Shown here: in pieces, positions 1 to 3,634 of the stretch
How the letters are laid out: the number at the start of each line of letters is the position of its first letter
How positions within the stretch are numbered: the first letter of the stretch is position 1
Notes under the pieces: model-generated
What the model was told of the DNA's origin: nothing
Database searches by the model: none
The model's input: the letters and a program-made list of their open reading frames with translations, nothing else
NCBI GenBank assembly: GCA_025363475.1
Contig: JANYDS010000095.1
Coordinates: 89,236-135,628 of the forward strand
Reading direction: 5' to 3'
DNA length: 46,393 nucleotides
Source: Terriglobia bacterium
GTDB taxonomy: Bacteria > Acidobacteriota > Terriglobia > Bryobacterales > Bryobacteraceae
Translations under genes and position numbers: made by a program

Positions 1-786
1 TTCATCGAGGATGGTATTCACGGCGAGCCATTCCTGGTCGCTGAGTGAAGATATAGTGGGCCGCTTGAGAGCGGGCAACACCGCGAGGACTGCAGCAAGG
101 TTGTCACGATGCACGTTGAGCATCAGGCCGACTTTGCCGAGGGCAGCGATGGCTCCATCGAGGAGCATCTTGAGGTCGGCGAGTTTGCTGCGTTTCCAGT
201 CGTCCGCGCAGGCAGCTTTGTTGGCGATGAGCTGGGTGTTGGATTCCATCAGTGTTTCCACAATCCGGAGCTTGTTGGCGCGGAGGGAAGAACCGGTTTC
301 GGTGACTTCGACAATGGCGTCTGCGAGGACCGGCGGCTTGACTTCAGTGGCACCCCAGCTGAATTCGACTTTGGCGGTGACGCCGTTGCGGGCGAGGTAG
401 CGTTTGGTGGCACCAACCAATTCCGTAGCGATGACTTTGCCTTCGAGATCCTTGACGGACTGGATGTTGCTGGATTCAGGAACGGCGAGCACCCAGCGAA
501 CTTTGCCGAAACTGGCTTTGGAATAGACGAGGTCGGCTACGGGGACGATATCGGCTTCGACTTCTTCGACCCAGTCACGACCCGTGAGGCCGGCGTCGAG
601 GACTCCATCCTGAACGTAGCGGGCCATTTCCTGAGCGCGGATTAGCATGCACTCGATTTCGGGGTCGTCAATGGTGGGGAAATAGGAACGGGAACTGGTG
701 GAGATGTTGAAGCCCGCGCGACGGAAGATGTCGATAGTGGCGTTTTCGAGGCTGCCTTTGGGGATGCCTAGTTTCAGTTTGTTCAT
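1..786 (-). CDS. hisG: ATP phosphoribosyltransferase, long form (partial, 3' end off window)
   Basis: Catalyses the first step of histidine synthesis, joining ATP and PRPP. Reading the minus strand from 786 gives an uninterrupted frame that begins [13 protein letters not shown] and runs off the left edge after 262 codons. The N-terminal part has the HisG periplasmic-binding-like fold with the conserved [10 protein letters not shown] segment. The last 50 or so visible residues ([11 protein letters not shown] onward) belong to the C-terminal regulatory domain, so this is the long, self-contained form that is feedback-inhibited by histidine and does not need HisZ. Its ATG overlaps the hisI stop as ATGA, so the two are translationally coupled. 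Only the final part of the regulatory domain is missing. Family assignment is firm. Confidence 0.95.
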
Positions 787-1163
787 TTGGTTGTTCCGTA
801 TGTCGTGGAGGGATCGTAAGTCGGTTTTTCGGACTCGATCCATTGTCCGTTTTCGAGTTTGCGGTAGAAGCAGCTTTGGTAGCCTGCGTGACAGACACCG
901 GGGCCGAGGGCATCGACCTGGATGAGGAGCGTATCGTCGTCGCAGTCAGTGGAGATTTCGCGGACTACGAGTTTGTGGCCGGAACTTTCACCTTTCATCC
1001 AGAGCTTGTTGCGGGTGCGGCTGAAGAAAGTGACGAAGCCGGTTTCGAGAGTTTTCTGCCAGGCGACCTCATTCATGAAGCCGACCATGAGGACGCGTTG
1101 AGAAGTTGCGTCCTGCACTACGGCGGGGATGAGACCGTCCAGTTTATTGAAGTCTAGGGGCAT
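783..1163 (-). CDS. hisI: Phosphoribosyl-AMP cyclohydrolase
   Basis: Opens the adenine ring of phosphoribosyl-AMP, the third step of histidine synthesis; cytosolic, zinc- and magnesium-dependent. Starting at the ATG at 1163 the protein has 126 residues, normal for a monofunctional HisI without the HisE domain. The metal site is visible: C74 in DCDDD (with D75 and D77 for magnesium), then C91 and C98 in [12 protein letters not shown] longer reading from 1202 adds 13 residues but would start before the family's normal N-terminus, so 1163 is preferred; no strong ribosome binding site is seen. It is the first structural gene after the histidine attenuator and overlaps hisG by ATGA. Placing hisI before hisG differs from the enterobacterial operon order. 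Confidence 0.95.
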
Positions 1164-1203: not shown

Positions 1204-1232
1204 AAAAACGCCCGCCGATGATGCGGCGGGCG
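1204..1232 (-). terminator. Intrinsic terminator of the his attenuator
   Basis: On the minus strand a perfect 9-bp GC stem (CGCCCGCCG / CGGCGGGCG, plus-strand arms 1209-1217 and 1224-1232) with a 6-nt loop is followed directly by five U residues (plus-strand A run 1204-1208). It lies between the leader peptide stop and hisI, so it terminates before the structural genes. Its 5' arm also takes part in the competing antiterminator helix described for 1226-1278. Confidence 0.88.
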
Positions 1233-1317
1233 TCCTTTCGTTTGACCTGGAAAATCGTTTTATGCCAGGACGCGCCGCGCGTGGTTCACCGGATGATGGT
1301 GGTGATGCCGGGCGGCG
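1226..1317 (-). promoter_or_regulatory. His operon attenuator: anti-antiterminator and antiterminator segments
   Basis: Four RNA segments can be assigned on the minus strand. Segment 1 (1312-1317, CGCCGC, leader codons 5-7) can pair with GCGGCG in segment 2. Segment 2 (1268-1278, GCGGCGCGUCC, leader codons 18-22) can instead pair with segment 3 (1226-1235, GGACGCCCGC), giving six pairs, one bulged C and four more pairs. Segment 3 overlaps the 5' arm of the terminator. A ribosome stalled at the His codons (1293-1307) would cover segment 1, free segment 2 to pair with 3, and block the terminator. A ribosome reaching the stop codon would cover segment 2 and let the terminator form. Pairings were drawn by eye; energies were not calculated. 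Confidence 0.8.
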
Positions 1318-1331
1318 GAGAACACTGACAT
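1260..1331 (-). CDS. hisL: His operon leader peptide (23 aa, five consecutive His)
   Basis: A short frame starts with ATG at 1331 and stops with TAA at 1260-1262. Codons 9-13 are CAT CAC CAC CAT CAT, five histidines in a row, and codon 17 is a sixth His. The rest contains Arg, Val and Ala in a GC-rich stretch that doubles as antiterminator RNA. It sits directly upstream of the terminator and hisI, the position and composition of a classical histidine leader peptide; its function is to sense charged tRNA-His by ribosome stalling, not to make a stable protein. No Shine-Dalgarno sequence is obvious. A weak promoter-like pair (ATGGCA, 18 bp, TACACT) ends 7 nt before the ATG, so a leaderless or very short transcript is possible. 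Confidence 0.88.
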   Translation of the reverse strand: MSVFSAARHHHHHPVNHARRVLA

Positions 1332-1382
1332 GTCGTTTAGTGTAGCAAGGCCTGGTGTTTGGTGCCATTGAGGTTGGGTTAC

Positions 1383-2953: not shown

Positions 2954-3212
2954 ATGCAGGCCCGCGTATCTACGAAGGGCCAGGTGGTTCTGCCCGGACC
3001 CATTCGCCGGCCAGCCTGGCCTTCAACCCGGCGATTCGCTTGATGCTGATATCCGGGATGGGCGGATTGTGCTCACACCACACAGAACAGCGACGACGGA
3101 ACCCCGGATTATCAACGACCCGTTAACCGGACTGCCCGTCCTGACTGTGGGGGCGGGTGGAGCAATTCTGACAGGGGAACAGGTTCGGGAAATTTTGTCG
3201 AATTTTCCGTAG
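2954..3212 (+). pseudogene. SpoVT/AbrB-type (MazE/VapB-like) antitoxin, +1 frameshift
   Basis: The ATG at 2954 begins MQARVSTKGQVVLPGPIRR, the standard SpoVT/AbrB swapped-hairpin start (STKGQVVLP.x.IR). The frame is then lost at 3007-3013, where CGCCGG is followed by CC instead of one C. Dropping one C restores a full protein: QPGLQPGDSLDADIRDGRIV, then a tail TATTEPRIINDPLTG..VLTVGAGGAILTGEQV ending at TAG 3210-3212. The total length is one base more than a multiple of three, as expected for one inserted base. The intact protein would have 85 residues and bind its own operator and the PIN toxin encoded downstream at 3232. Either decay or a sequencing indel in a C run could explain it. Confidence 0.72.
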
Positions 3213-3231
3213 TCCGCAACGAGGATCCACA

Positions 3232-3634
3232 GTGAAATACCTTTTGGACGTCAACGCGCTAATTGCTCTGGGATTTCTGGAGCATGAGTTCCACGGGCGC
3301 CTTGGCTGCCTGGGTCGGTGCATTGCCGCGCCGGGCACAATTGATGACCTGCCCGATCACGGAACTGGGCTTCGTGCGGGTTCTCTCGCAGGTACCGCAG
3401 TTCGGACTGACTGTTGCGCAGGCGAGAGATGTGCTTGCGCGGATAAAAACATCCGAAATCATTCAATTCAGCTTTCTCGATGACTCCCGCGATGCGTCGA
3501 GACTACCCTCCTGGGTCAAGTCACCGAAACAAATTACCGACGGTCATCTGGTGGAACTCGCGACTTCAGCAGGCTTATTATTGGCGACGCTGGATCAGGG
3601 GATTCCAGACGCGTTTGTGATTCCGAAGGTTTAG
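3232..3634 (+). pseudogene. PIN-domain toxin (VapC-like), +1 frameshift
   Basis: From GTG 3232 the frame reads MKYLLDVNALIALGFLEHEFHGR, a typical VapC start with the first acidic active-site residue in LLDVNALIAL. At 3301-3304 (CTTG) it changes frame; dropping one T continues as LAAWVGALPRR, CPITELGFVRVL, then TDGHLVELATSAGLLLATLDQGI and the stop at 3632-3634, covering the remaining PIN motifs. The repaired protein is about 133 residues, normal for the family, and would be a ribonuclease. GAGG upstream supports the GTG start. The gene pairs with the AbrB-type antitoxin at 2954, which also has a one-base insertion, so neither half of the pair is intact. Confidence 0.78.

Follow-up and report, generated by a model that had tools for sequence, protein, structure and literature searches.

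Upstream of the histidine biosynthesis genes of a Bryobacteraceae bacterium, the 46,393-nucleotide stretch of DNA analysed here (the window) very probably carries a ribosome-mediated his attenuator. We judge it highly likely that the element attenuates transcription of the his operon and that its leader peptide is translated from a leaderless mRNA. Judged from its conservation, the his attenuator of Acidobacteriota appears to be real and widespread; the attenuation principle is known, and what is new is the his leader peptide that is very probably leaderless.

The element and the first genes of the operon comprise the following features, in window coordinates.

1363–1368, minus strand: weak −35-like hexamer ATGGCA, four of six matches to TTGACA, 18-nt spacer
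1339–1347, minus strand: extended −10, TGC-TACACT (hexamer 1344–1339), read from the sequence; TANNNT is conserved in leaders
1260–1331, minus strand: leader peptide ORF of 23 codons, MSVFSAARHHHHHPVNHARRVLA, start ATG 1331, stop TAA 1262–1260; probably translated from a leaderless mRNA
1293–1307, minus strand: regulatory run of five His codons, CATCACCACCATCAT, read from the sequence; His clusters occur in relatives
1273–1317, minus strand: 1:2 helix of the minimum-energy fold, arms 1317–1301 and 1290–1273, loop holding part of the His run; duplex −28.5 kcal/mol
1267–1281, minus strand: segment 2, the antiterminator strand, within the 3′ end of the leader ORF; pairs with 1236–1224
1224–1236, minus strand: segment 3, common to the antiterminator (with segment 2) and the terminator (with segment 4)
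1204–1233, minus strand: intrinsic terminator, GC-rich hairpin ACGCCCGCCG-CATCAT-CGGCGGGCGT followed by U5
783–1163, minus strand: hisI, phosphoribosyl-AMP cyclohydrolase, first structural gene (PF01502, E=1.6e-30; start by conservation)
1–785, minus strand: hisG (ORF and Pfam match), 3′ end beyond the window

The elements that an earlier reading of the letters alone (the sequence-only reading) had described at this locus were all recovered. The 23-codon frame with five His codons at 1307–1293 re-reads correctly on the minus strand, in both coordinates and run; a sixth His codon (1283–1281) lies past the run, and the 15-base His pattern has six matches genome-wide, the window's copy counted among them. 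The reported terminator with U5 and the mutually exclusive stems are real: the computed hairpin has 10 bp (nine GC-rich pairs and one A-U; −21.1 kcal/mol) and its U5 ends at 1204, and the antiterminator 2:3 helix, which like the 1:2 helix was computed, joins 1281–1267 to 1236–1224 through 13 bp (−23.9 kcal/mol). The −10-like hexamer TACACT does stand exactly 7 nt before the leader ATG, separated from it by AAACGAC. For this locus (L007), segment 2 pairing was scored at −24.5 against a shuffled mean of −13.9, and the region 1345–1200 folds with z = −3.9 relative to dinucleotide shuffles. The leader stop codon is 96 nt from hisI, with the terminator in between.

Conservation places the start of hisI at ATG 1163, close to where the alignment with most relatives begins, which gives 126 residues; the ATG at 1202 is the first in the frame but is not the conserved start. 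Along the contig, Pfam matches to eight genes place after hisI, in this order, hisG, hisD (histidinol dehydrogenase), a class I/II aminotransferase that is the hisC candidate, a HAD hydrolase, hisB (imidazoleglycerol-phosphate dehydratase), a class-I glutamine amidotransferase that is the hisH candidate, and two His_biosynth proteins. The his operon totals nine genes with hisI first. We take the two His_biosynth proteins to be hisF and hisA, the assignment between the two being presumptive. The HAD hydrolase (L133, 6197–6883, minus strand; PF13419, E=4e-19) lies between hisC and hisB, and its position makes it a candidate histidinol-phosphate phosphatase. The host had been called an apparent acidobacterium, and the closest named HisI relatives agree: identity is 78% to the protein of an 'uncultured Acidobacteriia bacterium' and 76% to that of a 'Bryobacteraceae bacterium'; Bryobacteraceae are placed in Acidobacteriota, Terriglobia, by the NCBI taxonomy. 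Elsewhere in the window, at 2954–3634 on the plus strand, ORF pieces in several frames presumably resemble the start of an AbrB-type antitoxin and a PIN-domain toxin; Pfam searches of all four pieces gave no family up to E 0.1.

The His-rich leader ORF is conserved well beyond the host. HisI was present in 59 of 61 genomes (the window's own and 60 relatives), and a wider sample of 396 genomes from the phylum gave it in 247. The 127 upstream regions compared were 60 loci from the set of own genome and relatives (including the own locus and a second match in G052), seven from named acidobacteria and 60 from the phylum; because these last were picked by hand, mostly from the best-scoring matches listed, the phylum sample is skewed towards hisI genes near the query. 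A short ORF with at least three His in seven residues was found in 100 of the 127 regions, 50 of the 60 phylum regions included. When only ATG starts were allowed, 94 of 127 regions still qualified, whereas 20 rounds of dinucleotide shuffling gave 2.1 on average and 4 at most, and the antisense strand gave none; ORFs with at least five His in seven residues occurred in 74 of 127 regions and in none of the 20 shuffle rounds.

The leader peptides themselves vary (MAVTIAVRHHHHHRAISVRRVLS, MSLVHHAHRSHHHRSPKRPAGVCA and MQTLRHHGHHHHHGNPMPADCHGLN are examples) around a constant His cluster, and since the cluster is kept while the other residues change, we read the pattern as selection on the His codons. 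His-rich ORF, terminator and antiterminator complementarity recur in relatives at every rank from genus through family, order and class to phylum; the leader spans at least 12 families of Acidobacteriota. We accepted the attenuator call because the leader ORF is conserved beyond both shuffles and antisense. For all further comparisons 98 leaders were used, that is, the 100 less L018 (a chance-like GTG ORF) and less one upstream region at 80% identity; L037, L038, L040, L041 and L043 were excluded as duplicates, and an alternative start for L025 was computed and left unused. The leaders are related by descent, so the counts given here are not independent.

The start codon of the leader stands at a nearly constant distance from a putative promoter. 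Leader starts had been picked by His content, blind to any −10 element, and in 88 of the 98 a TANNNT has its first base 12–16 nt ahead of the ATG; twenty upstream background windows of 5 nt gave a mean of 1.7 and a maximum of 6. Of these 88 leaders, 83 have a gap of 8, 9 or 10 nt between −10 and ATG; in the window the gap is 7 nt. At 87 hisI ATGs assigned in the same 98 loci (by a simple rule, not manually, as the ATG nearest the start of the HisI alignment), TANNNT stands at −16 to −12 in none and a Shine-Dalgarno core is present in 35. Such cores accompany six of the 98 leader ATGs, below the background mean of 12. With a gap of 7 nt, there is no room for a Shine-Dalgarno sequence if transcription starts at the ATG. 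Positions −1, −2 and −3 of the leader ATG are pyrimidines in 63, 72 and 68% of cases, with C at −1 in 49 of 98, a pattern that would suit transcription starting on the A of the ATG. Moreover, a −35 element matching TTGACA at five or six positions (best of spacings 15–19) precedes 37 of the 88 leaders, distant members included. We also observed two promoter types for the one leader, either TGn extended −10 with a poor −35 or a strong TTGACA-like −35: TGn precedes the −10 in 39 of 88 leaders, comprising 29 of the 37 with a poor −35 (three matches or fewer) and only two of the 37 with a strong one.

According to the accessible text of Zheng et al. (2011), leaderless genes are predicted in all three Acidobacteria genomes considered there, at a mean of 13.3%, and a TA-like signal about 10 bp before a start most probably marks a leaderless gene (PMC3160421). 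The suggestion of the sequence-only reading that the leader peptide might be leaderless has thus gained strong support from sequence, in the form of a −10/ATG spacing that is fixed in 88 of 98 leaders and seen at none of the 87 hisI starts.

A his attenuator with an ordinary short 5′ UTR, transcribed from a start site farther upstream and translated by Shine-Dalgarno-independent initiation, is the strongest competing account, and an improbable one. It draws on the 10 of 98 leaders in which the strict TANNNT window is empty, and on the ilvB leaders of the same family (described below), whose −10 elements, where visible by eye, stand about 12–13 nt before the ATG, outside the strict leaderless geometry, so that short 5′ UTRs may occur in these bacteria. 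The fixed spacing in the other 88 leaders, the properly spaced TTGACA-like −35 elements of distant members and the scarcity of Shine-Dalgarno-like cores all speak against it, and the leader peptide of the his attenuator is very probably leaderless.

The conserved ORF is coupled to a conserved terminator. A hairpin followed by a T-tract is present in 94 of the 98 leaders (median −21.6 kcal/mol), beginning a median of 30 nt past the first base of the leader stop codon. This control is a loose one, because 74 of 294 shuffled regions also yield a hairpin of −8 or better, and strength therefore counts for more than mere presence. The absence of either the His run or the terminator from relatives would have spoken against the sequence-only reading; instead, a His run occurs in 94 of 127 regions and a hairpin with T-tract in 94 of 98 leaders.

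Over the 94 leaders, the duplex between segment 2, in the 3′ half of the ORF, and the 5′ arm of the terminator has a mean of −19.9 kcal/mol; the corresponding means are −15.1 when segment 2 is shuffled and −17.0 when the arm comes from another locus. Leader by leader, only 46 of 94 had five or fewer of 100 shuffles reaching the real pairing. An alignment within the genus (A1, 15 sequences) was too conserved for covariation, and a permutation test was used in place of a covariation count, covering families with at least four leaders. Cognate pairing exceeded permuted pairing in families f1 (25 leaders, 0 of 5000 permutations reaching the real value), f8 (14 leaders, 0 of 5000) and f30 (14 leaders, 27 of 5000) and in a mixed set (24 leaders, 0 of 5000); no cognate preference was seen in f52 (six leaders, 3104 of 5000). 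That cognate strands beat permuted ones within groups indicates that the two strands tended to change together. With His ORF, terminator and cognate antiterminator pairing all recurring in relatives, the interpretation of the element as a classical his attenuator is upheld as far as sequence can carry it.

Folding the leader with and without a stalled ribosome, as the sequence-only reading had proposed, bore that interpretation out in part. When a ribosome footprint covers the His run and the 3′ arm of the terminator has yet to be made, a mean of 0.76 of the 5′ arm is paired with segment 2 over the 94 leaders. For the complete leader at equilibrium, the terminator is favoured in many cases even with the ribosome stalled (mean 0.74 of the 5′ arm; 0.94 at the window's locus), and antitermination would therefore have to be kinetic. 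With no ribosome and the 3′ arm unmade, a mean of 0.59 of the 5′ arm pairs upstream, so that the termination classically expected of an untranslated leader is not clear; nor does the 1:2 helix, a candidate protector, show a clear effect in this state. The value of 0.00 for a ribosome at the stop codon is true by construction.

From the observed anatomy, conservation, complementarity and fixed promoter–AUG spacing we infer how the switch would work, from the start site and the stalling of the ribosome to termination and how it is relieved. RNA polymerase would initiate at, or within about 3 nt of, AUG 1331, as the position of the −10 suggests, and a ribosome would load on the bare 5′ AUG and translate the His run. 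When charged tRNA-His is ample, the ribosome would reach the UAA at 1262–1260 and cover segment 2; segments 3 and 4 would then pair and transcription would stop at U1208–1204. When charged tRNA-His is scarce, the ribosome would stall at 1307–1293, leaving segment 2 (1281–1267) free to pair with segment 3 (1236–1224). With 2:3 paired, the terminator would be held off long enough for transcription to continue into hisI and the downstream genes.

The leader is not universal among the regions compared. The scan found none in 27 of the 127, the same-genus locus L016 among them, and the match in L018, also of the same genus, looks like chance; ten of the 27 come from phylum families in which hisI may be fused or internal. 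By eye, a −10-like element persists with no ATG and His run behind it in L016, L018, L034, L103, L106, L110, L115, L119–L122 and L126–L128, which appear to be leader losses in some relatives of the same genus, family and order. Among 54 named non-acidobacterial hisI loci, only four weak, chance-like ORFs were found (L071, L089, L091 and L101); the loci were taken irrespective of whether hisI comes first and do not amount to a survey of those phyla.

In family f27 the leader stands before another gene. In all three f27 genomes examined for hisG, a His-rich ORF lies some 150 nt ahead of the hisG match (L286, L291 and L292), no leader precedes hisI in the two genomes examined for it, and the f27 operon may begin with hisG. 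The −10 elements of these hisG leaders fail the strict TANNNT pattern, and in L291 a TTTAAT is seen by eye about 10 nt before the ATG. Across 16 genomes, a His leader before hisG was convincing only in these three; the other 13 had none (one locus was short and one had far-upstream, coding-like ORFs). The hisD loci of the same 16 genomes returned the same three leaders and one weak GTG ORF.

These f27 leaders also bear on the idea that the element is a plain terminator or 5′ UTR element, its His run belonging to an ORF that arose by chance or to a small metal-binding protein. In favour of this, a poly-His stretch could be capable of metal binding, and an upstream transcription unit might end at a simple terminator. 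Against this stand the His clusters of 94 of 127 regions amid varying residues and with no antisense counterpart, the cognate antiterminator pairing, and the presence of His-rich ORFs before hisG in a family whose two genomes examined lack a leader before hisI. The probability we assign to this idea, already very small, was lowered further because the operon genes were named by Pfam matches, and it is now close to negligible.

Other amino-acid operons were scanned in 15 genomes. No convincing Trp leader was found in the 23 trpE loci scanned (26 matched), and no convincing leader in the 23 leuA loci scanned (30 fetched). Among the 15 best ilvB loci, ATG ORFs with many Val, Ile and Leu codons were present in all five f1 genomes, the window's own included, and in one of two from f3; the other eight gave none that was convincing. 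The ORFs are located as follows.

L225, L226, L227, L228 and L229 (about 210–305 nt upstream of the ilvB match) and L232: ilvB leader ORFs

The leader of the own genome (L225) reads MLLSLSGRITATVPVSGIVVVVVSVPF; by eye, a hairpin and T-tract come after these ORFs, the hairpin of L225 being GC-rich. These ilvB leaders are probable branched-chain attenuators.

None of 4227 Rfam families reached its gathering score in the window. When matches up to E 5 were admitted in six loci, those falling on leaders, all below threshold, were to His_leader (L007 and L030), Thr_leader (L007), and anti-hemB and isrD (L014). The His_leader family (RF00514) scored 25.0 bits on L007 and 23.5 on L030, against a gathering score of 49, and did not match the other four loci up to E 5; such low scores say little, because the unrelated anti-hemB scores as well on L014 (25.9 bits, against 49.5). 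Membership in RF00514, the T-box family (RF00230) or a riboswitch family was rejected on these Rfam scores. A T-box or riboswitch sensing tRNA or a metabolite and overlapped by a decoy ORF is scarcely credible, for although T-boxes control his genes in Firmicutes and Actinobacteria, according to the available part of PMC9413887, no T-box or riboswitch reached its gathering score in the window or appeared among the matches up to E 5 in the six loci.

The element resembles the his attenuator of E. coli and Salmonella (RF00514) in having a His run within a short leader ORF and mutually exclusive antiterminator and terminator before the his operon, and the subthreshold matches to this family on L007 and L030 fall at the right place and strand. 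It differs from that attenuator in scoring below the gathering score of 49, in preceding an operon that begins hisI-hisG, and in having its ATG right after the −10, with no room for a Shine-Dalgarno sequence. It is also like the candidate his attenuators of Firmicutes (Bacillus cereus group, Peptostreptococcaceae and Erysipelotrichales), short leader peptides before his genes that, in the text available to us, were found by comparative genomics, carry three to five consecutive His codons and are not detected by RF00514 (PMC9413887). Those candidates belong to another phylum, and the same text does not mention leaderless initiation for them.

Leaderless leader peptides are described, in the portions of the sources accessible to us, for trpL of S. 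meliloti (PMC7298713) and for leuL, trpL and ilvL of Streptomyces lividans (PMC8079986), and a leader formed without a ribosome-binding site is indicated for ilvBNC of C. glutamicum by the title of Morbach 2000 as referenced in PMC4046766. The present element is like these in that the leader mRNA would start at the AUG or lack a ribosome-binding site; it is unlike them in that they serve Trp, Leu or branched-chain operons of Alphaproteobacteria or Actinobacteria, whereas here a his operon of Acidobacteriota is concerned. The accessible text of PMC3896937 rules out a His leader peptide in front of hisD in C. glutamicum. Our literature search, mainly of non-subscription sources, gave among the matches listed no characterised attenuator in Acidobacteriota, his included, and no leaderless his leader.

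As far as the accessible text of the two papers goes, a gammaproteobacterial origin with very few transfers was suggested for the amino-acid attenuator motifs of Rfam (PMC3766115), and predicted attenuators of Acidobacteria were described with almost no associated function (PMC2965389). Tentatively, and as a possibility we consider unlikely rather than likely, the his attenuator of Acidobacteriota could be ancient, having arisen independently of the gammaproteobacterial his leader or before it, with leaderless initiation as an integral part of the switch. The promoter would be locked to the start codon, the sensor AUG would come first in every transcript and the first ribosome would load at once, so that his expression would depend on charged tRNA-His as well as on the cell's ability to initiate in the leaderless, 70S-type mode.

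A his attenuator in at least 12 families of Acidobacteriota with the same promoter–AUG geometry would show that this form of control is old or arose more than once, and would give the phylum a well-supported amino-acid attenuator. The dozens of natural variants, apparent losses included, would provide material for testing how a leaderless AUG couples translation to transcription.
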